Assembly (NCBI GenBank): GCA_017402895.1
Contig: JAFPLG010000177.1
Location: 1 to 12,683, forward strand
Length of the DNA stretch: 12,683 bases
DNA from: Paludibacteraceae bacterium
Lineage (GTDB): Bacteria; Bacteroidota; Bacteroidia; Bacteroidales; Paludibacteraceae
Direction: 5' to 3'
Both the position numbers and the translations under genes were made by a program. Numbering within the stretch: the first letter of the stretch is position 1; the number at the start of each line of letters is the position of its first letter. Below, one piece after another: positions 3,300 to 12,649 of the stretch. Below the pieces are notes generated by a model. That model was not told the DNA's origin, searched no databases, and was given only the letters and a program-made list of their open reading frames with translations.

Positions 3300-3337
3300 A
3301 AAATAAGGAGTTGCTCATGCGGGCAACTCCTTATTTT
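3300..3337. terminator. Bidirectional rho-independent terminator between secDF and pepD
   Basis: AAAATAAGGAGTTGC (3300-3314) and GCAACTCCTTATTTT (3323-3337) form a perfect 15-bp stem around an 8-nt loop (3315-3322). The plus-strand side ends in a T-rich run (TTATTTTCTTT). The minus-strand side likewise reads TTATTTTTAT, so it can terminate both secDF (+) and the convergent MATE-pepD operon (-). Confidence 0.9.
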
Positions 3338-3338
3338 C

Positions 3339-3357
3339 TTTAGCCATTAGCCATTAA
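3339..3357 (-). repeat. Heptamer repeat tract after the pepD stop codon
   Basis: On the minus strand the TGA stop of pepD is followed at once by TTAATGG CTAATGG CTAAAG, that is, two to three units of a 7-nt repeat. It lies between the stop codon and the terminator hairpin. The same unit is found inside pepD, the MATE gene and ldcA, and at the spt-dehydrogenase junction. Confidence 0.6.
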
Positions 3358-4818
3358 TCAGAGTTTCTCCAAAACTCGGCAGAGCCATTGGTAGCAGCGC
3401 TCCGTGCTCGGAATCGACAGACGCTCTTGGGGCGAGTGGACGCCGTACATCTGCGGACCGATTGATACCATATCCAGGTACGGATATTTCTCCAAGAACA
3501 GACCGCATTCCAGTCCGGCATGGATAGCCAATACTTGCGGTTCTGACTTAAACAATTCTACGTACGCCTCTTTGGTCACCTCCAGCAGCGGGGAGTTAGG
3601 ATTCGGTGCCCAGCCGGGATAACCGTCACCATGGGTCACTTCGTCGCAAGCGAGCGAGAGCGCCTGTTCTACTGCCCATTTCAGGTGATGCTTGCTATTT
3701 TCGATCGACGAACGTTGGGAGGTATTGACTTCAATATATCCCTCTTTCATCTTGATGGAGGCAAGGTTCGTACTCGTCTCTACCAGTCCCGGCATCTCTT
3801 TGCTCATAGCGATCATGCCGTGCGGGCACTCGCAGAGCGCCATGATGAGTCGGTAGGCTTTGTCGGTAGGGATAAACTCTTCGGGCATGTCGCAGGTCTC
3901 GAGGTCCAGACGCATATCTTTCTCTACCTCGCCGAATACACCTTCCATCTGTGCGATAAAGTGGTTCCACTCGATACGTATCTGCTCTTTGTACGCCATC
4001 GGTATCGTGATGATAGCCTCCGCCTCGCGGGCAATGGCGTTGCGCAGGTTACCACCGTTGATGCTGGCCAGTTGTACCTCGGTCTGCGGCCATATACGTG
4101 CCAGGAACCAAACGATCAGTTGGTTGGCATTGGCGCGACCCTTGTTGATATCATCACCCGAGTGACCACCCATCAGTCCGCTTACGGACAGACGAATGGC
4201 TAATGGCGAATGGTTAGAGGCTAATGTACCTTCGCCATTAACCTTTAGCCTTTCACCTTTATAGTGCATCTTAGCCAGCGTGTCGATACCGCCGGCACAG
4301 CCGATGAAGATCTGGCCGTCGTCTTCGGAATCAAGGTTAATCAAACGCTTGCCTTTCAACATGCCGTCCCGGAGTTTCTCCGCGCCGGTCAGTCCGGTCT
4401 CTTCGTCCACGGTGAAGAGGCACTCGATAGCGGGGTGTTTTAGGTCCGGATTGGTGATAGCAGCCAGCGCCATAGAGATACCTATGCCATCGTCTGCGCC
4501 GAGGGTAGTACCTTTAGCTTTGAGCCACTCACCATCCACGTAGGTCTGGATAGGATCGTTCATGAAGTCGTGCTCAACGTCGCCGTTCTTCTCGCATACC
4601 ATATCCATATGGGCTTGCAGGATGACGCCTTCGTGGTCCTCATAACCCGGCGTGGCGGGAACGCGCATGATGACGTTCATGGTTTCGTCGGCTACGCATT
4701 CGATATTGTGCGCCTTGGCCCAGTCTTGGAGCCACTGGCTGATGCGCTCCTCATGCTTCGACGGACGAGGCACTTGGTTGATCTGCGCAAAGATGTCAAA
4801 CACTTGTTTTGGTTCCAT
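3358..4818 (-). CDS. pepD: Xaa-His dipeptidase / aminoacyl-histidine dipeptidase (peptidase M20C)
   Basis: A cytosolic di-zinc dipeptidase that hydrolyses Xaa-His and other dipeptides, recycling amino acids. The 486-aa length matches the PepD family. Metal and catalytic motifs are intact: QAHMDMV (His70, Asp72), LGADDG (Asp109/110), TVDEETG (Glu139/140), NLDSED (Asp163), GLMGGHSGDD (214-223) and MYGVHSPQE near the C-terminus (His461). The ATG at 4818 lies inside the end of the MATE gene (23-nt overlap, different frame), so translation is probably coupled and both genes use the promoter at 6221-6252. Residues about 187-207, just before the conserved SVSGLMGGHSG block, are encoded by a degenerate 7-nt repeat tract and appear roughly ten residues longer than in E. 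coli PepD as I recall that sequence. The insertion is in a loop, so activity is probably kept. Confidence 0.95.
   Translation of the reverse strand: MEPKQVFDIFAQINQVPRPSKHEERISQWLQDWAKAHNIECVADETMNVIMRVPATPGYEDHEGVILQAHMDMVCEKNGDVEHDFMNDPIQTYVDGEWLKAKGTTLGADDGIGISMALAAITNPDLKHPAIECLFTVDEETGLTGAEKLRDGMLKGKRLINLDSEDDGQIFIGCAGGIDTLAKMHYKGERLKVNGEGTLASNHSPLAIRLSVSGLMGGHSGDDINKGRANANQLIVWFLARIWPQTEVQLASINGGNLRNAIAREAEAIITIPMAYKEQIRIEWNHFIAQMEGVFGEVEKDMRLDLETCDMPEEFIPTDKAYRLIMALCECPHGMIAMSKEMPGLVETSTNLASIKMKEGYIEVNTSQRSSIENSKHHLKWAVEQALSLACDEVTHGDGYPGWAPNPNSPLLEVTKEAYVELFKSEPQVLAIHAGLECGLFLEKYPYLDMVSIGPQMYGVHSPQERLSIPSTERCYQWLCRVLEKL
4193..4262. repeat. Heptamer repeat tract and inverted repeat inside pepD
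   Basis: On the plus strand, units GAATGGC TAATGGC GAATGGT TAGAGGC TAATG run in one direction, and from about 4231 the complementary form (CGCCATT AACCTTT AGCCTTT CACCTTT) runs in the other. GGCTAATGGCGAA (4198-4210) and TTCGCCATTAACC (4231-4243) can pair with one G-T/mismatch position across a 20-nt loop. The 7-nt phase is unrelated to the codon phase, yet the reading frame stays open. Confidence 0.65.
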
Positions 4819-6202
4819 ATTCTAATCGTTTTAATTGTTTATGAAAGCGTATATGATAGAGCACGGCCGGGATAGCCAGTGCGATAACAAACGAGATCCA
4901 CATGCCCTGTGCTCCCCATCCTACGGGGAAGGTCAGTAGCAGTCCAAGCGGCAAAGCTACGATAATATAAGCCACTACGGCTATGCGCATCGGAACGCGC
5001 ACATCCTGGATTCCTCGCAACATAGCCGCTCCGATACATTGCAGTCCGTCCACATACTGGAGCGTACCGGCGATGACCAGTAGCGTCGAGGCGATAGGCA
5101 CTACCTCCGGATCGCTGGTGAAGATATAGGGGATTATGTTTCTTCCCAGAATCATAATTGCTGCGCCGATGGTATTCATCATCAGGCATAGATGCACCGA
5201 AGCCCGACTGGCCATACGAACGGCATGCAAGTCGCCATGCCCGAGTTGGTGGCTGACACGTATCGTCGTGGCGGCACCGATTCCCAGGGCCAGCATAAAG
5301 GTCAGGTCGGCCATCTGGTTGGCTATATGATGAGCCGCCAGCGTCTCCTTGTTGATCCAACCGATGATGATAAACGAGGCGGTGAACAAGAAGGCCTCGC
5401 AGAACGACTGCATACCGATAGGCGTGCCGATCTTGAAGAGTCGGCCAACCACTTCCCGGCGAATCATGCTGAAGCGAATGCCCCTTAGGTACTGTCGCCA
5501 GTCCTTACGCCATGCCATTACCAAAAAGAAGCAGATAGGCATCAGTGTGCGGGCGATAAGCGATCCGATACCCGCTCCCTCGGCACCCATGGCCGGAAAA
5601 CCACAATGGCCATAGATGAGTATCCAGTTCATCAGGATATTCATCAGGTTGCAGACGACGGTAATCACCATTGCCACGAGGGTGTTTCCCAGTCCCTCCA
5701 GAAACTGCTTGCAGAAGCAGAAGAGCAGGAAAGGCAGGATCGAGAGCACGATGAGCGTATAGTACGGACGGGCGCAGGCTACGACTTCGGGTTCCTGACC
5801 GAAATAATCCAGCAGACCGATACACGGAGCCAACAATACGAATGAGACAAGGCATATCAGAGCGGTGAACACCAGCCCGTTGGTCATATAGGACTTGATT
5901 TGCTCATTGGCCTTTTGCCATTCGCCATTTGCCTCCTCGCCTTTCGCCTTCTCCAGTTCGCCATGCGTGAAACCTACGAGCGGCGTAATACCCATGACGG
6001 CACCCATCGAGAAGACCATGACGGTGAAGAAGATAGCATTCGAAAAACTGACTGCCGCCAGGTCGGTTGTGGCGTATTGGCCCACCATGATCGAGTCGAA
6101 CAGACCCACCAGCGCCGCTCCCAGTTGGGTCAGCACCACGGGCATCGCTACCCGCAGGTTGCGACGGTAATAGGGCAGTATTTCTCGAAAACTATAGCGC
6201 AT
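4796..6202 (-). CDS. MATE-family multidrug/cation efflux transporter
   Basis: A 468-aa polytopic inner-membrane protein of the MATE (NorM-like) family, which exports drugs or organic cations in exchange for Na+ or H+. About twelve hydrophobic segments are visible, in two similar halves. The first half holds MPVVLTQLGAALVGLFDSIMVG (20-41) and MGITPLVG (70-77), the second GTPIGMQSFCEAFLF and the partner helices; this is the usual MATE repeat. The ATG at 6202 is preceded by a short leader of about 12 nt and a good promoter. Residues about 82-100, in the loop following MGITPLVGFTHG, are Glu/Lys/Asn/Gly-rich (EKAKGEEANGEWQKAN) and are encoded by a 7-nt repeat tract, apparently an in-frame insertion. 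The gene is the first of an operon with pepD. The substrate cannot be told from the sequence. Confidence 0.92.
   Translation of the reverse strand: MRYSFREILPYYRRNLRVAMPVVLTQLGAALVGLFDSIMVGQYATTDLAAVSFSNAIFFTVMVFSMGAVMGITPLVGFTHGELEKAKGEEANGEWQKANEQIKSYMTNGLVFTALICLVSFVLLAPCIGLLDYFGQEPEVVACARPYYTLIVLSILPFLLFCFCKQFLEGLGNTLVAMVITVVCNLMNILMNWILIYGHCGFPAMGAEGAGIGSLIARTLMPICFFLVMAWRKDWRQYLRGIRFSMIRREVVGRLFKIGTPIGMQSFCEAFLFTASFIIIGWINKETLAAHHIANQMADLTFMLALGIGAATTIRVSHQLGHGDLHAVRMASRASVHLCLMMNTIGAAIMILGRNIIPYIFTSDPEVVPIASTLLVIAGTLQYVDGLQCIGAAMLRGIQDVRVPMRIAVVAYIIVALPLGLLLTFPVGWGAQGMWISFVIALAIPAVLYHIRFHKQLKRLEYGTKTSV
5904..5962 (-). repeat. Heptamer repeat tract inside the MATE gene
   Basis: The plus strand reads as successive units TTGGCCT, TTTGCCA, TTCGCCA, TTTGCCT, then CCTCGCC, TTTCGCC, TTCTCC and GTTCGCC. 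On the coding strand the unit is approximately GGCGAAW/GGCAAAW. It encodes a polar, low-complexity loop (residues about 82-100) between two early transmembrane helices. Confidence 0.6.
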
Positions 6203-6220
6203 TCTTCTAAAATCCGACTA

Positions 6221-6252
6221 CAAAGATACGAATTATTTGCGAATCTCCCAAA
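6221..6252 (-). promoter_or_regulatory. Promoter of the MATE-pepD operon
   Basis: On the minus strand TTTG (6252-6249) is followed after exactly 20 nt by TATCTTTG (6228-6221), an exact Bacteroidota promoter. Predicted transcription starts near 6214, only about 12 nt before the MATE ATG at 6202. It overlaps the opposing promoter for the small membrane protein by 17 bp. Confidence 0.85.
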
Positions 6253-6267
6253 AAATTTATACCTTTG
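6236..6267 (+). promoter_or_regulatory. Promoter of the DUF4293-like gene
   Basis: TTTG at 6236-6239, then exactly 20 nt, then TACCTTTG at 6260-6267. Predicted start of transcription is near 6274, leaving a leader of about 22 nt before the ATG at 6296. The -33 box lies between the two boxes of the divergent MATE promoter, so the two core promoters are interleaved. Confidence 0.85.
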
Positions 6268-6295
6268 CAACCGATTTGATACAAAAAGCATCCGT

Positions 6296-6790
6296 ATGAG
6301 TGGTATTTACAAGCGTCTGGTGTTGATGTTGATAGCTCTGGTAGCGGCGATTACGCTGCTCAATGTGCCGGTGTTTAATTTCCAAGGAGACAAGGGAGTG
6401 ATCTCCAACCGCGCCTATGAAATGGACAAGAAGAACTTCTATGTCTACCAGACCGACTTTGAGACCCACGAGACGACCACCGTCGGCGTTGTTTCCGTCA
6501 AGGGTTTGTATTATTGCAACCTACTGATGATAGCCACTTCCATCCTCTGCCTGCTTTGTTTCTTTAGTGACAGTTGGCGCATCTATTTGTCGCTTATCAC
6601 GGTTCTCTTGGCCGGCATATACTATGCGCTGATGATCTACTATGCGGTGAAGATATCCAACGAGTGGTACCCGACGCTTTATCCCAACCTGGCAGCCCTG
6701 TTGCCGGCTGTCGTACTGGAGGCGATGGTTCTCACGCGCAAGAGTCTGTTGCGCGAGATACGTCATAACGACGAACGACTGATCGACTAA
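6296..6790 (+). CDS. Small four-helix membrane protein, DUF4293-like
   Basis: A 164-aa protein with four predicted transmembrane segments (about 8-25, 71-90, 95-117 and 130-147), a polar extracytoplasmic loop (26-70) and a charged C-terminal tail (REIRHNDERLID). Size, topology and the basic/acidic tail resemble the DUF4293 family, a Bacteroidota-specific membrane family of unknown function; this assignment is tentative. An open frame extends upstream to 5900, but I chose the ATG at 6296 because it follows a good promoter by about 22 nt and opens a typical membrane-protein N-terminus (MSGIYKRLVLMLIALVAA). The upstream part is antisense to the MATE gene. The stop overlaps the stop of the convergent transferase gene by 4 bp, with no terminator between. 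Function unknown. Confidence 0.8.
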   Translation: MSGIYKRLVLMLIALVAAITLLNVPVFNFQGDKGVISNRAYEMDKKNFYVYQTDFETHETTTVGVVSVKGLYYCNLLMIATSILCLLCFFSDSWRIYLSLITVLLAGIYYALMIYYAVKISNEWYPTLYPNLAALLPAVVLEAMVLTRKSLLREIRHNDERLID

Positions 6791-8562
6791 GGTCGTGTAG
6801 GAATAGCCATCGGCTGCAGGTTGGCGTCCAGTCCCCAAACGGTATCCATGGCTTGCATCAGCGTGTCGGCAAACGACAGCTGCGGATGGCCCTCCGGCAG
6901 TTTCACTTCTCCCAGATCCAGCAACGAATAGAAGAGGCACATCGTTGAGGTCAGTTTCTGACGGTTACGCTGCATAGCCTCTATTTTCTGCGGATAGATC
7001 TTCCGATATTGCTCGCTGGTCCAGACGAACAAAGGCACGTGGTACTCGTAGTACGAGCCGGCATACGTGCCATGCAGGAACATATGTTTCTCGTCGTCCA
7101 ACAGGTTCTCGCCGTGGTCGCCCACATACACCAGCACGGCCGGACGGCCCGTCTGCTCCAGTTCGCGAATGACGCAATCGATGAAGTAGTCGGTGTAGAG
7201 TATCGCGTTGTCGTACGAGTTGATGAGGATAGCTTTCAGGTTGCGGAAGGCCGTCATATTCTCCGGTTTGAGTCGAGCCATTCCGTCCGGTTCCTCACTA
7301 CCACCGGCTTTCTGAAACAGTGCCTTCATGTCCAGTCCGGTCATGTCGGGCGTGTAGCGTTGGAACGACTCCGGATAACGGGCCGAGTACTTGAAATGGC
7401 ATCCCAGCGAGTGGAGTGTGATGAACTGCTGCGTCTCGGGCGTGGTTAGTTGCGTGCGGAAGGGCGGTAGCAAAACGGTATCTACAAACACTTCCTCGCC
7501 CGGGTCGGTCACGTATTTCTTATAGTCGCAATTCTCGGCGATACGCATCAGGAAATGGTTGTTAAAACTCTGGTCGGCAATCCATGCCGTGCGATAACCG
7601 GCTTCGTGGAATGCATCCACTATGGATGCCTCGTGCATATACAGTTCGCGGTTTTGCGGTGTGGCGCGCGAGAAGATAAACGGAACGGAGACGGTTGTCA
7701 GGTTGGCCACCGAATAGACCGAGTCGAACGAGATAATCTGGTCTTGGCGTGCCAAGAGATAGGGCGATGTCTCACGTTCGTAGCCGTTGATCTGCCAGTG
7801 GTCGTAACGCGAAGTCTCGCCCACCAGAAAGACCACGATAGGCTGATTGTCTCTGACCCGTTTCGGACGACTCGGTTCGTACGTAGCACCGAAGCGGAAA
7901 TCCTGCAGGGCCTCTTTTTGCTCTGCAATCTGATGTCCCAGATCCACGATGTTGTAGATCGACAGGAACATATTCACCGGGCAAGCTTTCTCGGCACCTA
8001 CCCACGCGGCAGAACGCATGTCCTGGCCGTGGATGTTGAACATATTCCAGAACTTAGGTTGCAGTTTCAGCCCCACGACCGTCGTCGTCAGAAACAGCAC
8101 AATAACCCCCAGCGTCCACATACGCTTGCGTAGCGGCGCGATATATTCCTGCTTGACAAATCGATGGGCCAGGTAGTAATACACACCCCAGAGCGTGAAG
8201 AACAGGATCAGCACAAACCAGTAGGTAGAGAGCAGTTCCAGAAACTCACCCTTCTCCGATTTGATAATCGTGAACACAAAGAGCAAGGATGTCGTAGCAT
8301 GATTGATGATCAGGTGCACCAGGTCGATCGCCGAGAGCAGAAATCCCAACGAAGCCACGTATAGAAAGGTGCGACGGCGAAATAGGGTCAACCCCAGGCT
8401 ATAGATAGCTATCGAGGTGATGAAATAGATAATCCGCTGGCCGATCGTGAGCAGGTCTTGCGCCACGAACGTACCTACTATATTCGGTAGTAGCAAAAAG
8501 AGCATCAGGCACGTGAAAACGATGCCTTCACGCTTTGACATGGTCTTGCAGGATTTGGACAT
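6787..8562 (-). CDS. Phosphoethanolamine transferase-like membrane enzyme (EptA/sulfatase superfamily)
   Basis: A 591-aa inner-membrane protein with five hydrophobic segments (about 14-32, 42-60, 66-86, 112-132, 148-166), followed by a periplasmic alkaline-phosphatase/sulfatase-fold domain. Family marks include VGETSRYDHWQINGYERETSP (Glu249 as metal ligand), NLTTVSVPFIFS (287-298; Thr289 or Thr290 is the likely nucleophile), LHSLGCHFKYSARYP (383-397), YVGDHGEN (Asp482, His483) and FLHG (His497). Relatives move phosphoethanolamine from phosphatidylethanolamine to lipid A, glycans or other lipids; the acceptor here is unknown. Aligned by eye with EptA, the Thr falls two residues later than the classical nucleophile, more like OpgE-type enzymes. 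Two starts are possible, ATG 8562 and ATG 8541; both overlap the end of the LD-carboxypeptidase gene, implying translational coupling. It is the last gene of the minus-strand run and ends tail-to-tail with the DUF4293-like gene. Confidence 0.85.
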   Translation of the reverse strand: MSKSCKTMSKREGIVFTCLMLFLLLPNIVGTFVAQDLLTIGQRIIYFITSIAIYSLGLTLFRRRTFLYVASLGFLLSAIDLVHLIINHATTSLLFVFTIIKSEKGEFLELLSTYWFVLILFFTLWGVYYYLAHRFVKQEYIAPLRKRMWTLGVIVLFLTTTVVGLKLQPKFWNMFNIHGQDMRSAAWVGAEKACPVNMFLSIYNIVDLGHQIAEQKEALQDFRFGATYEPSRPKRVRDNQPIVVFLVGETSRYDHWQINGYERETSPYLLARQDQIISFDSVYSVANLTTVSVPFIFSRATPQNRELYMHEASIVDAFHEAGYRTAWIADQSFNNHFLMRIAENCDYKKYVTDPGEEVFVDTVLLPPFRTQLTTPETQQFITLHSLGCHFKYSARYPESFQRYTPDMTGLDMKALFQKAGGSEEPDGMARLKPENMTAFRNLKAILINSYDNAILYTDYFIDCVIRELEQTGRPAVLVYVGDHGENLLDDEKHMFLHGTYAGSYYEYHVPLFVWTSEQYRKIYPQKIEAMQRNRQKLTSTMCLFYSLLDLGEVKLPEGHPQLSFADTLMQAMDTVWGLDANLQPMAIPTRP

Positions 8563-9337
8563 GGTCGTTCTCTACAGTTAGTTTGACGGGGTGGTTGAGC
8601 CACAAGGGCAGGTTGTGCTCCACGTGTCCTACCGGCACGTTAAAAGCCACCGGGTAGTTGTATTCGGCCGCATAACGAGCGATGGTCTCATAGACCGTCT
8701 CGCCCATCAGCGGGTCGTCCTCGCAATCGGTGAACTGGCCCACCAGCAGTCCTGACAGATTGGCCAGTACGCCGCTCAACCGCAGGTTGTTCATCATCCG
8801 ATCGATATGATAATGTCGCTCCCCGATATCCTCGACGAGGAGAATACAATCTTTCGCCATTAGCCTTTCGTCCGTTAGCCCAAATGGCGTTCCCTGCAAG
8901 CCGTATAGCACGCTCAAGTTTCCGCCAACAAGCATTCCCTCCGTTTCTCCCTTTCGGTTCAGCGGATGGGTAGGAATCACATATTCCAGCGCCTTGCCTT
9001 GCAGGGCTTCTATCGTGCGTTGGAGCGCTTCGCTCGTCTCGGGGAGCGTGGCGATATGCTTGCACATGATGCTGTGGAGCGTCGGTTGACCGCTGAGACC
9101 GGCCAGCAGGTGAAGCGCCGTGATATCTGAGAAGCCGATGATAGGTTTACGGATCTCACCGATGCGGTCGATGATACGTTGCAGTCCGTATCCGCCGCGC
9201 GAACAGAGAATCATATCCACCTGTGGATCGTCCAGTGCCGCACGCAGGTCGCTCACCCGCTCCTCGTCCGTGGCGGCAAACCGTCCGTGACGGCCACGAC
9301 AATACTGCCCCTCGCTCACCTCAAAGCCAAGCGACAA
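8528..9337 (-). CDS. ldcA: LD-carboxypeptidase (peptidase S66), open body lacking its N-terminus
   Basis: LdcA-type enzymes are cytosolic serine peptidases that remove the terminal D-alanine from tetrapeptides during peptidoglycan recycling. The catalytic triad is present. In numbering from the ATG at 9415 it is Ser96 in IIGFSDITAL, Glu195 in LLVEDIGERHYHIDRM and His264 in NVPVGHVEHNLPL; the conserved CSRGGYG block is also there. The open frame begins after a TAA at 9365-9367, and its first usual start is a TTG at 9337. Starting there would remove the first beta-strand and the IVSPSG motif, which are encoded in the same frame upstream (9415-9368). So this is either a recent nonsense mutation, a sequence error or a recoded stop. 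Residues about 178-187 (LTDERLMAK region), before the catalytic Glu, come from a 7-nt repeat tract and look like a small insertion. It overlaps the start of the transferase gene. Confidence 0.85.
   Translation of the reverse strand: MSLGFEVSEGQYCRGRHGRFAATDEERVSDLRAALDDPQVDMILCSRGGYGLQRIIDRIGEIRKPIIGFSDITALHLLAGLSGQPTLHSIMCKHIATLPETSEALQRTIEALQGKALEYVIPTHPLNRKGETEGMLVGGNLSVLYGLQGTPFGLTDERLMAKDCILLVEDIGERHYHIDRMMNNLRLSGVLANLSGLLVGQFTDCEDDPLMGETVYETIARYAAEYNYPVAFNVPVGHVEHNLPLWLNHPVKLTVENDHVQILQDHVKA
8851..8887 (-). repeat. Heptamer repeat tract inside ldcA
   Basis: The coding strand reads GGCTAAC GGACGAA AGGCTAAT GGCGAAAG, units of the same 7-nt family as in pepD and the MATE gene. It falls between the conserved GTPF motif and the LLVEDIGE strand, where homologues normally have a short linker. 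Confidence 0.55.
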
Positions 9338-9364
9338 AAGACGCTCTGCAGCGCCTTTTATGTA

Positions 9365-9415
9365 TTACGGTTCTATCGCCCCGGAAGGAGATACTATGCG
9401 GATTCTTTTAACCAT
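9365..9415 (-). pseudogene. N-terminal fragment of ldcA cut off by an in-frame TAA
   Basis: From ATG 9415 the frame reads MVKRIRIVSPSGAIEP and then TAA at 9367-9365; the very same frame continues with YIKGAAERLLSLGFEVSEG into the LD-carboxypeptidase body. The N-terminal IVSPSG motif and the YIKGA continuation are what intact S66 peptidases show (homologues typically have a Gln or similar residue before YI). A single C-to-T change from CAA would explain the stop. No frameshift is needed. The ATG is 23 nt after the dehydrogenase stop, as expected for an operon gene. Confidence 0.8.
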
Positions 9416-9445
9416 TACGTAATTACGTAATTACGTTATTACGAG
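9414..9445. repeat. 8-bp tandem repeat ATTACGTA bridging two genes
   Basis: Four consecutive 8-nt units, ATTACGTA, ATTACGTA, ATTACGTT and ATTACGAG, fill the entire gap between the dehydrogenase stop (9441-9439) and the ldcA ATG (9415-9413), and overlap both codons. ACGTAATTACGT within it is palindromic. It has no visible Shine-Dalgarno sequence. It differs in unit length and sequence from the heptamer tracts. Confidence 0.8.
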
Positions 9446-10254
9446 TATACTTTATACTCTATCCAGTTCACCAGTCGTTTCGGTAGGATGCGGTCCAGCA
9501 GGCACAGCACGCGATAGCTGAATCCACCTACGTATTGCGGACGGGGACTACGACACGTAGCAATATGGTAAAACAGTCGAGCCATCTGCTCGGGACGCAT
9601 ACCGCCACGCTCGTCACGCTCCATCGTGGTGATGGCTTTGTTGGCGCCCACGTACACGTCTTCCCCGGCGGTCGATTTGTCGCGTGCATCCGTGAAACCG
9701 GTGCTCACGTCACCCGGCATCATCACGCTGACCTGAATACCGAAGTCCTTCACTTCGTTAGCCAGCGCCAGTGCCATCGCATTGATAGCTGCTTTTGAGG
9801 CCGAGTAGAAAGCCTGGTACGGAACGGGCAACGCTGCAGCCACCGACGAGGTATAGATGATACGTCCGCCATGCTGTGCGCGCAGTTGTGGCAGTACGGC
9901 TTGCGTCAGACGAACAGCGCCCATGAAGTTGACATCCATCTGGTGCTCGGCATCCCGAATCTCGGTGAACTCAATAGAACCCGAGATACCGTAACCCGCA
10001 TTGGAGATGACGACGTCGATATGGTCGGTCTGGCGGAGCACCTCGGCGATAGCCTTGCGCGTACTCTCCTCGGAGCATACATCGCAGGTCACGTGGATAA
10101 TCTCCACTGCGTCTTTTGTCTTTCGACTTTCGACTTTCGACCCTTTACCATGCCGGCTCAGTTCAAAAACGCGCCAGCCCCGCTCCGCAAAGAGCGAGGC
10201 CGTAGCCTTTCCTATACCCGAAGATCCTCCGGAAATAACTAATACTTTAGCCAT
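9439..10254 (-). CDS. Short-chain dehydrogenase/reductase; candidate 3-ketosphinganine reductase
   Basis: A 271-aa classical SDR. It has the NAD(P)-binding GGSSGIG (9-15), CDV (57-59), NAG (85-87), the catalytic Ser at 136/137 and YSASK (Tyr150, Lys154). Position 24 nt downstream of serine palmitoyltransferase suggests it could reduce 3-ketosphinganine to sphinganine; SDRs next to spt are a known arrangement in Bacteroidota. The SDR fold alone does not prove the substrate. I place the start at ATG 10254 (MAKVLVISGG), since the TTG three bases earlier adds only one residue. Residues about 37-49 (KGSKVESRKTKDA), between the second beta-strand and CDV, are encoded by a 7-nt repeat tract and look inserted, about eleven residues longer than usual. 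The start codon itself lies inside another heptamer tract. Confidence 0.93.
   Translation of the reverse strand: MAKVLVISGGSSGIGKATASLFAERGWRVFELSRHGKGSKVESRKTKDAVEIIHVTCDVCSEESTRKAIAEVLRQTDHIDVVISNAGYGISGSIEFTEIRDAEHQMDVNFMGAVRLTQAVLPQLRAQHGGRIIYTSSVAAALPVPYQAFYSASKAAINAMALALANEVKDFGIQVSVMMPGDVSTGFTDARDKSTAGEDVYVGANKAITTMERDERGGMRPEQMARLFYHIATCRSPRPQYVGGFSYRVLCLLDRILPKRLVNWIEYKVYS
10111..10149 (-). repeat. Heptamer repeat tract (GAAAGTC type) inside the SDR gene
   Basis: The plus strand reads GTCTTTT GTCTTTC GACTTTC GACTTTC GACCCTTTACC, a clear 7-nt period with two exact neighbouring units. On the coding strand the unit is GAAAGTC. Seven is not a multiple of three, so loss or gain of one unit would shift the reading frame of the SDR. 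Confidence 0.75.
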
Positions 10255-10278
10255 CAACCTTTAGCCTTTAGCCATTAA
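10245..10278 (-). repeat. Heptamer repeat tract spanning the spt-SDR junction and the SDR start codon
   Basis: On the minus strand, right after the spt TGA, comes TTAATGG CTAAAGG CTAAAGG TTGATGG CTAAAG, about four to five units of the 7-nt repeat. The fourth unit contains the SDR ATG (10254-10252). AAAGG ends 3 nt before that ATG and may be used as a weak ribosome-binding site, so the repeat itself seems to supply the initiation signal. Confidence 0.75.
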
Positions 10279-11463
10279 TCACATCTCCGGTGCACCCTCT
10301 TTGAGCACACGTGCGATAATCTCTACGGCTTCGTCGATCACCGGTTCGGTATGGGTAGCCATGAGCGTAGTGCGCAGCAGGCACTCACCCTCGACGCATG
10401 CCGGAGCCATCACCGGATTGACATAAACACCCTCGTCAAACAGCTTCTTGCCGAAGTAGAGTGTGTCGAGCGTCTTGTACGTAAAGATAGGCACGATAGG
10501 CGTCGGCGCCTCGATGATCTTCACGCCGGCAGCCAGCAATTGCTTCTGGAAGTACTTAGCGATATTCATCAGTCGCGTCGGACGCTCCGGATCCAGGATC
10601 AGTTGGTGGAGTGCCTCCAATGCCGTTGCAGCTGAGCATGGCGTGATACTTGCCGAGAAGATAAACGGACGACTCACGTGACGCAGCCAGTCGGCTACGC
10701 GATGACTCGTCAGCATACATCCGCCAATCGACGCCAGCGACTTGGAGAAGGTCAGCATCGTGATATCCACCTTGTCGGTCAGTCCGAAATGGGCAGCCGT
10801 TCCACGACCGCCGGGACCCAGCACACCGAATCCGTGGGCATCGTCCACCATCACGCGGGCACCGTATTTCTCAGCCAGCGCGCATATCTCCGGCAGTCGG
10901 CATATATCGCCGCGCATAGAGAACACACCGTCGGTGATGATCAGCTTGCCGGCATTCTCCGGAATAGATTGCAACTGACGCTCCAGGTCCTCCATGTCGG
11001 AGTGACGATAACGCAGCACCTTCGCATAACTCAGGCGACATGCATCGTATATCGAAGCGTGGTTCTCGCGATCGTTTAGGATATAATCGTCCTTACCACA
11101 GATAGCCGAGATGATAGCCAGGTTGGTCTGGAAACCCGTAGAAACGGTCATAGCCTCCTCGTAACCTGTGAAGGCGGCTATCTCGCGCTCCAACTGCAGG
11201 TGCAGATCCAGCGTACCGTTCAGGAAGCGACTACCGCTCACCCCCGTTCCGTATTTGTCCAGGGCTTCATGACCGGCCTTGATGACTGCCTCGTTCTCCG
11301 TGAAGCCGAGGTAGTTGTTCGAACCGAGCATGATGACGCGGTGGTTCTCCATCTGAACGATAGGAGCCTGACGACTCTCCAGTTCGTGGAAATAAGGATA
11401 GATTCCTAATTTGCGTACCAGTTTGAGGGTCTCAAAATGGTCACATTTTTCAAATAAATCCAT
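10279..11463 (-). CDS. spt: Serine palmitoyltransferase (PLP-dependent alpha-oxoamine synthase)
   Basis: This enzyme condenses L-serine with palmitoyl-CoA (or acyl-ACP) to 3-ketosphinganine, the first step of sphingolipid synthesis, a hallmark of gut Bacteroidales. The 394-aa sequence has alpha-oxoamine synthase marks: GSNNYLG (48-54), GSRFLNGT (77-84), ENHASIYD with the cofactor-stacking His135, DDAHG (207-211) and TFSKSLAS with the PLP-binding Lys241. The N-terminus (MDLFEKC...GIYPYFHELESRQ) and RPFIFSASITP match the Bacteroides serine palmitoyltransferase as I know it, better than glycine C-acetyltransferase or BioF, which remain the alternatives. No biotin genes are nearby. ATG 11463 is the natural start. 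It is followed 24 nt later by the SDR gene. The 101-nt gap to mdh has no recognisable promoter, so it may be read from the mdh promoter. Confidence 0.92.
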   Translation of the reverse strand: MDLFEKCDHFETLKLVRKLGIYPYFHELESRQAPIVQMENHRVIMLGSNNYLGFTENEAVIKAGHEALDKYGTGVSGSRFLNGTLDLHLQLEREIAAFTGYEEAMTVSTGFQTNLAIISAICGKDDYILNDRENHASIYDACRLSYAKVLRYRHSDMEDLERQLQSIPENAGKLIITDGVFSMRGDICRLPEICALAEKYGARVMVDDAHGFGVLGPGGRGTAAHFGLTDKVDITMLTFSKSLASIGGCMLTSHRVADWLRHVSRPFIFSASITPCSAATALEALHQLILDPERPTRLMNIAKYFQKQLLAAGVKIIEAPTPIVPIFTYKTLDTLYFGKKLFDEGVYVNPVMAPACVEGECLLRTTLMATHTEPVIDEAVEIIARVLKEGAPEM

Positions 11464-11564
11464 GTTTTATTTTGATTACAGAGTAAAGACCGGTCGTTTT
11501 ACTCCCTCAAAGCAATGTGGTCTTTGAACGAAGTGGTCTTTCTTCTTTTAGCGTTAGCGGTCTA
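11464..11564. other. mdh-spt intergenic region with direct repeat and palindrome
   Basis: A 9-bp direct repeat GTGGTCTTT occurs at 11517-11525 and 11533-11541, 16 nt apart. A near-palindrome, GAGTAAA (11481-11487) with TTTACTC (11498-11504), encloses GACCGGTC (11488-11495), itself a perfect palindrome. No TAnnTTTG promoter pair and no convincing terminator for mdh was found. These could be regulator-binding sites or RNA structure ahead of spt; there is no direct evidence. Confidence 0.4.
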
Positions 11565-12578: not shown

Positions 12579-12593
12579 TTGCATATCAGCCCG

Positions 12594-12625
12594 CAAAGGT
12601 AACAAAAAAATCACACATACGCAAA
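12594..12625 (-). promoter_or_regulatory. Promoter of mdh
   Basis: On the minus strand TTTG (12625-12622) is followed after exactly 20 nt by TACCTTTG (12601-12594). Transcription should start near 12587, giving a leader of about 80 nt. This promoter may also serve spt and the genes behind it. Confidence 0.85.
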
Positions 12626-12649
12626 TTTTTTGGCCATTTTTTTCATTTT

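Follow-up and report, generated by a model that had tools for sequence, protein, structure and literature searches.

How can a degenerate repeat of seven nucleotides, a unit that is not a multiple of three, settle inside several conserved genes of one gut bacterium and leave each of their reading frames open? The question is raised by a stretch of 12,683 nucleotides (the window) from a Paludibacteraceae bacterium (GenBank assembly GCA_017402895.1, contig JAFPLG010000177.1), in which heptamer tracts lie in loops of pepD, ldcA, a MATE transporter gene and a short-chain dehydrogenase (SDR) gene, as well as at two gene ends. A reading of the letters alone (the original prediction) had pointed out these tracts; what it did not foresee is that the unit changes between species at the same site while period 7 persists. 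The subject touches on why bacterial repeats prefer seven bases and on how one unit reaches many unlinked places, and it shows a route by which loop sequence in conserved enzymes is quickly gained or replaced. Because the period mostly holds while the unit changes at identical sites across the genus, the contributions of slippage, of copying and of selection can be distinguished.

A unit scan recovered all six predicted places, in GGCKAAW or GAAAGTC form, with main-tract scores of 18.5 to 33. The gene pepD (M20 family aminoacyl-histidine dipeptidase, 3358..4818, minus strand) carries a tract over its stop codon (3339..3359, minus strand, GATTAAT GGCTAAT GGCTAAA, score 20), which directly adjoins a terminator-like hairpin (3301-3338) between the convergent secDF and pepD. 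The pepD-loop tract consists of arm 1 (4191..4225, plus strand, GACGAAT GGCTAAT GGCGAAT GGTTAGA GGCTAAT, score 33), antisense to the gene, and arm 2 (4230..4257, minus strand, GGTGAAA GGCTAAA GGTTAAT GGCGAAG, score 28.5), sense to it. The arms are largely complementary, forming an inverted pair (24 nt at 79%), and the unit described as belonging to the coding strand does so in arm 2 and not in arm 1. The MATE family transporter gene (PF01554, 4796..6202, minus strand) has a degenerate loop tract at 5899..5962 (minus strand), made of 5899-5933 (score 28) and 5928-5962 (score 16), which overlap through a phase slip. The loop tract of ldcA (peptidase S66, LD-carboxypeptidase, 8528..9337, minus strand) reads GACGAAA GGCTAAT GGCGAAA (8852..8872, minus strand, score 21), and that of the SDR gene (PF00106, 9439..10254, minus strand) is of the GAAAGTC type, with three GTCGAAA units and one GACAAAA (10114..10141, minus strand, score 18.5). 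The sixth tract (10246..10280, minus strand, score 32) bridges the spt stop codon and the SDR start codon, its final unit forming part of the SDR start, ATGGCTAAA (ATG GCT AAA). The tracts at 3339-3359 and 10246-10280 overrun the stop codons of pepD and spt with TGATTAATGGCTAA in both, and an identical TGATTAATGGCTAAWGGCTAAA stands at the two stop codons. An extra match within pepD (4513-4533, score 13) is at background level. No tract scoring at least 12 was found by the scan in secDF, the DUF4293 gene, the sulfatase-family gene, mdh or inside spt.

The window's genome (G000) is a draft of 1,252,423 bases (1.25 Mb), 59% complete. The closest named records to the window are metagenome-assembled genomes labelled Paludibacteraceae or Bacteroidales, the top one from dairy-cattle reticulum. 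Across the whole of G000, the GGCKAAWGGCKAAW pair with at most one mismatch occurs 163 times (81 forward, 82 reverse) against 4 (2+2) for the reversed pattern; hence the restriction to minus-strand genes is true of the carriers in the window and does not extend to the genome. A tract search over 343,629 bases (27% of the genome, 41 stretches), controlled by reversed sequence and five local trinucleotide shuffles, found 40 tracts scoring at least 20, compared with 1 in reversed sequence and 0.0 in the shuffles, and 43 compared with 3 at a score of at least 18. Twenty of the 41 stretches (~208 kb) had been selected for carrying hits, a selection of which the whole-genome pair count is free; one set of 20 contigs is the remainder of C1-C25 after the hit-bearing contigs were taken, and is for that reason depleted, not random. 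GAAAGTC pairs show a weaker excess (31 versus 11 in the control). A chance origin from codon and base composition could draw on the loosest score, at least 12, at which reversed sequence yields 25 tracts against 66, and was rejected on the stricter tract counts and the pair count; we give it next to no credence, and the predicted enrichment over shuffled sequence was confirmed. With head-to-tail period-7 copies above chance, dispersed at many places, the window tracts are members of a family of heptameric simple-sequence repeats that extends over the whole genome.

The pepD loop reveals how such a site changes between species. Congeners hold there arrays of AATTCAA, AAATCAY, CAATCTY, CACAATG, AAAGTTK, AAGTCAG, CCAATAG or GGYKARA. 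Among 43 distinct pepD sequences, 22 (including the window) bear arrays of eight unit families, 3 have an 18-nt-type hairpin repeat and 18 are without an array repeating at a lag of 7 nt (lag-7 array). A tree of pepD, built with rows of incomplete pepD or identical outside-loop sequence left out, a low array threshold (8) and the window's unit label assigned by hand, gives at least 13 unit switches among array bearers. In pairwise loop comparison, from which only partial rows were left out and in which four rows could not be split, L038 and L032 are 92% identical in pepD outside the loop and have unlike loops of 51 and 42 nt, while L248 and L245 (86% identical outside the loop) have loops of 33 nt each, made of different units. 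Sister species fill some identical spots, including the same enzyme loop, with different heptamers, so turnover of the repeat vocabulary appears rapid, with the genes kept open.

The tracts mostly keep to this loop: 18 of the 20 lag-7 tracts in 41 pepD orthologues (at least 60% identity) fall within it, though it makes up 7% of the protein. In the window, the tract encodes residues ~186-209, immediately ahead of the M20 dimerisation domain (212-274). An AlphaFold model on 40 sequences, with a mean predicted local distance difference test score of 89, places it in a turn between strands 176-185 and 205-213, residues 191-200 being the lowest-confidence block (56). Among the best 120 relatives, the loop stretch of the nearest (89% identical) spans 27 residues, KMHYKGERLEAKGERLAIRLSVSGLMG, compared with 35 in the window; a dozen array loops have 26-27 amino acids, and loops lacking an array 25-28. 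Such constancy of length might suggest that the heptamers are functional sites, regulatory, structural or acting at protein level, under selection. The gene-end tracts, the polar peptides that fill the loops and the many pepD loops near 27 amino acids would suit that explanation; the differing unit at the same site in near relatives, the unrelated functions of the carrier genes and an Rfam search of the window that returned no family matches make it improbable.

Similar behaviour was observed in the other carriers. In the MATE gene, the tract stands in place of LEKLLxQGTTxxEIxHKHEQ of most close congeners (41 versus 42 amino acids), and the ldcA loop of congeners holds AATTCAA-, AAATTAA-, AATGGAC-, TCAATTC- and ATTCAGG-type arrays. 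Among orthologues of at least 60% identity, the loop contains 4 of 6 lag-7 tracts in ldcA (27 orthologues, 2 of 6 outside), the single one in MATE (20 orthologues) and both in SDR (25 orthologues), and 32 spt orthologues have none. A looser threshold finds lag-7 arrays in five distinct ldcA, two MATE and three SDR loops of congeners, with arrays related to the SDR tract in the SDR orthologues of G004 and G018. When aligned with the best solved relatives, the tracts of pepD, MATE and ldcA coincide with gaps in the alignment, and that of SDR with a site where length varies. The original prediction of a short polar insert in a loop was right as to position (by alignments and the pepD model) and polarity in the sense direction, and less so as to insertion: arrays often replace loop sequence instead of lengthening the loop, which is why repeat-free homologues in part have the same loop length (MATE, pepD), real as the repeat is.

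Open frames, which the original prediction had also stressed, are not a matter of luck. Within open reading frames (ORFs, defined by length alone), sense orientation leads by 17 to 2 at scores of at least 18 (hand count) and by 27 to 6 over all scores. The ratio of T to G forms is 10:28 inside ORFs compared with 53:19 outside long ORFs, so that the stop-free GGCGAA form predominates inside, in a comparison that is partly circular because an ORF cannot hold an in-frame TAA. By direct reading, the tracts encode polar amino acids in sense (G, E, K, R, N, A) and more hydrophobic ones in antisense.

Beyond individual loops, each array-rich species of the genus has its own few abundant units, and the pepD loop tends to hold the common unit of its genome. 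In the comparative series of 61 genomes (GGCKAAW counts cover 37 genus genomes), GAAAGTC pairs number 151 in G007, 117 in G022 and 0 in G014 and G017; CACAATG pairs number 67 in G034, 65 in G021 and 0 in 21 of the 61; and AAATCAY pairs reach 304 in G073 and 220 in G069. In 24 genomes of other families, GGCKAAW never exceeds 2.6 times its control, and none of them has more than 3 GAAAGTC pairs. The reversed-pattern control gives high counts with CAATCTY and AAATCAY in certain genomes (e.g., 71 in G014, 179 in G081), perhaps because the reversed word is itself a repeat unit there; it is invalid for AAAGTTG, which when reversed is a rotation of the same word, and this unit was left out of the abundance test. 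Over ten genomes and four units, with loop labels and counts entered by hand and three counts subtracted for the loop itself, the abundance elsewhere of the unit found in the pepD loop has a mean percentile of 0.92 (0.64 to 1.0), a match reached by 0 of 10,000 label shuffles. A prediction fixed in advance for G068 was borne out, its loop unit ranking first of 61 genomes with 95 pairs. Of 1357 pairs of de novo lag-7 units from the same genome, 3.5% are identical, compared with 0.7% of 10,091 pairs from different genomes, an excess reached by 0 of 2000 permutations.

These counts bear on independent local slippage, by which every array would arise from its own seed and the likeness of units would reflect base or codon composition. 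Heptamers are described as over-represented in bacteria in the available parts of two reports, with a polymerase-footprint hypothesis (PMC4692102, PMC4679880), and many arrays within one genome do have unlike units. Contrary to this explanation are the uneven CACAATG counts (67 in G034, none in 21 genomes) and GGCKAAW counts (163 pairs in G000, 1 in G013), the base composition of the sisters not being compared in either case, as well as the within-genome likeness of units in the permutation test and the inverted pepD pair, which simple slippage does not give. We regard local slippage alone as doubtful, if still the most credible of the rivals.

The period itself is more constant than the unit. 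In contigs C1-C10 of each genome, taken unseen, lag-7 arrays occur at 14.7 per 100 kb in G007, 12.4 in G014, 12.0 in G017 and 7.1 in G025, three of which had been picked as array-rich from earlier pair counts, compared with 0-3.0 per 100 kb at lags 4-6 and 8-10 and 1.2 lag-7 arrays per 100 kb in loci L050-L110 of other Bacteroidales. The leading periods in G007, G014 and G017 are 7 and its double; G025 has 5.5 per 100 kb at lag 11 beside its 7.1 at lag 7. The absence of arrays from the G022 sample carries no information, as this genome contributes just 24 kb in small contigs. Period 7 prevails in the nine sampled genus species except two, which favour period 11 or 16: G013 (L193-L199) has mainly 11-nt arrays (TATTGGGTGAT; 8.4 versus 1.4 per 100 kb at 7), and G024 (L211-L218) 16-nt hairpin-like arrays (TCTAACAGCGCAGCGG; 7.0 versus 1.5 per 100 kb at 7). 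A fixed unit length with a species-changing unit resembles telomere repeats, and by this analogy alone one might imagine a telomerase-like reverse transcriptase that uses an RNA template to add the unit to DNA at breaks. G073, the genome richest in four units summed, has RVT_1 matches; such matches are, however, present in only 15 of 61 genomes and absent from array-rich G006, G007, G014, G022 and G069 and from the incomplete G000, RVT_1 presence is unlinked to array abundance (p = 0.30), and there are several units per genome. We hold this idea to be very improbable.

Dispersal in both orientations and in frame inside genes also recalls a small mobile element, such as a miniature inverted-repeat transposable element (MITE) or a repetitive extragenic palindromic (REP)-like element, carrying heptamers and moved by a transposase, as the available part of one report describes in-frame placement for Rickettsia palindromic elements (PMC2229807). 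Some GAAAGTC tracts adjoin a GCGAAGCGGTC hairpin repeat, two on contig C50 have 3' flanks in common, and G000 has one over-cut-off Y1_Tnp match (C82). Lengths and flanks vary, nevertheless, in most of 66 tracts (by eye); Y1_Tnp matches occur in 22 of 61 genomes (18 over cut-off) and in none of the array-rich G006, G014, G069 and G073 (some incomplete), which speaks against a system of REPs with their associated tyrosine transposases (RAYT); and array abundance shows no difference between genomes with and without Y1_Tnp (p = 0.53, four units summed). Array-rich G006, G014 and G069 have neither RVT_1 nor Y1_Tnp matches, and we consider a mobile element unlikely.

The best explanation, to which we give a probability of roughly 0.5, combines 7-nt slippage with the copying of short patches from one array to another, under selection that favours open frames and tolerant loops. 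Slippage in steps of seven would lengthen arrays and can account for their presence and lengths; the recurrence of a single unit at many sites, the inverted arms and the replacement of loop sequence are beyond slippage by itself, and copying between arrays would explain them. Short stretches may be copied from array to array through template switching or ectopic gene conversion; such copying would spread one unit, allow either orientation (as in the inverted pepD pair) and overwrite prior loop content, and the vocabulary of a species could afterwards drift through point mutation and spread. Arrays that interrupt the frame or interfere with folding would be removed by selection, leaving in genes those that form polar, stop-free turns, mostly in sense. 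A candidate trace of copying is found on contig C50, where a 59-nt block at 96.6%, reaching past the array, is present at two places 1.1 kb apart. A bolder version, in which active short-patch non-allelic copying forces a small species-specific set of heptamers onto many sites and repeatedly rewrites the same loops, is a tentative proposal that we would not back at even odds; if true, it would amount to concerted evolution of microsatellites in a bacterium.

Several observations weigh against the combined explanation. The C50 block is the single clear case and could be an ordinary duplication, and we infer both slippage and copying from sequence comparison, no strain-level event having been seen. 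The pepD tree has weak support (of its 40 inner branches, 9 are starred and 15 open), and single-unit abundance tests are modest (p = 0.064, 0.047, 0.0047 and 0.0074). The loop-unit tests ignore shared ancestry, with loop genomes ranging from percentile 0.64, and the advance prediction for G002 missed the top-tenth mark (18 pairs, rank 15 of 61). Most arrays of any one genome have unlike units, and there are wide differences between species, lag-7 arrays in unseen stretches numbering 0 in 200 kb of G028, 1 in 72 kb of G013 and 3 in 200 kb of G024; to these is added the circularity in the T:G comparison. Of the original suggestion of a spreading mini-repeat or slippage-prone element tolerated only in loops, the dispersal is upheld, in loops and at gene ends alike, whereas slippage itself was not observed.

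Other repeats and features were recorded nearby. A palindromic octamer array, (ATTACGTA)n, lies at 9413-9445 between ldcA and SDR, with stretches 91-97% similar elsewhere in congeners G006, G015, G061, G068 and G078. The spt-mdh intergenic stretch 11522-11563 is 90% alike over 42 nt to L119:3813-3854, and its GCGAAGCGGTCTTTC hairpin-like repeat resembles both the 16-nt arrays of G024 and the pepD-loop insert of G002, G018 and G065. Near the 5' end of ldcA, an in-frame TAA (9365-9367) upstream of the TTG start at 9337 reflects either a truncated gene start or a sequence error. An AT-rich element of ~50 nt with a TAnCTTTGC-like end is found near gene starts (74-115, 6236-6277, 12593-12642) and repeated elsewhere in the genome; it is presumably a long Bacteroidota promoter region.

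Among known heptamer systems, those of Calothrix, which we take to be the cyanobacterial short tandemly repeated repetitive (STRR) sequences, are alike in having several heptamer families per genome, a likeness of description. One report mentions three Calothrix heptanucleotides (PMC4692102). The same report describes GGGAATC / GGGGA(C/T)T heptamers of Xanthomonas and Nostoc, with 186 and 183 dispersed repeats in two Xanthomonas (PMC4692102). They share with the present arrays a 7-nt unit, heterogeneous units, inverted pairs and variation of length and sequence between related species. Their units are G-rich and strongly biased to non-coding DNA, while the window's genome has many arrays inside conserved genes; GGCKAAW and GAAAGTC contain no GGG and thus are not G-quadruplex heptamers of the GGGAATC type. 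For bacterial heptamers, polymerase slippage is cited as a hypothesis in one 2015 paper, and according to the other no mechanism by which they spread is apparent (PMC4692102, PMC4679880).

The latter describes TAACTGA repeats in Beggiatoaceae, Cyanobacteria and five Bacteroidetes (PMC4679880), which are likewise dispersed heptamer tandem repeats, sometimes mixed with other heptamers. The window units are not TAACTGA, its rotation or its complement, the other arrays of the genome not having been searched for it. Rickettsia palindromic elements (105-146 nt) are also inserted in frame into conserved enzymes (PMC2229807), but are not 7-nt tandem arrays. The available parts of two further papers contain nothing on heptamers in Bacteroidota (PMC7015867, PMC4060949), and the literature searched gave no report of unit turnover at orthologous sites. 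The statement that the repeat has no named family holds for the GGCKAAW unit in that literature, heptameric repeats as a class being already in print. TAACTGA is one unit across phyla and mainly intergenic, whereas pepD presents one site with a changing unit, and, unlike in Xanthomonas and Nostoc, species of a single Paludibacteraceae genus differ in the unit itself. What is new here is this genus-wide turnover of units at conserved sites, including sites inside conserved enzymes.

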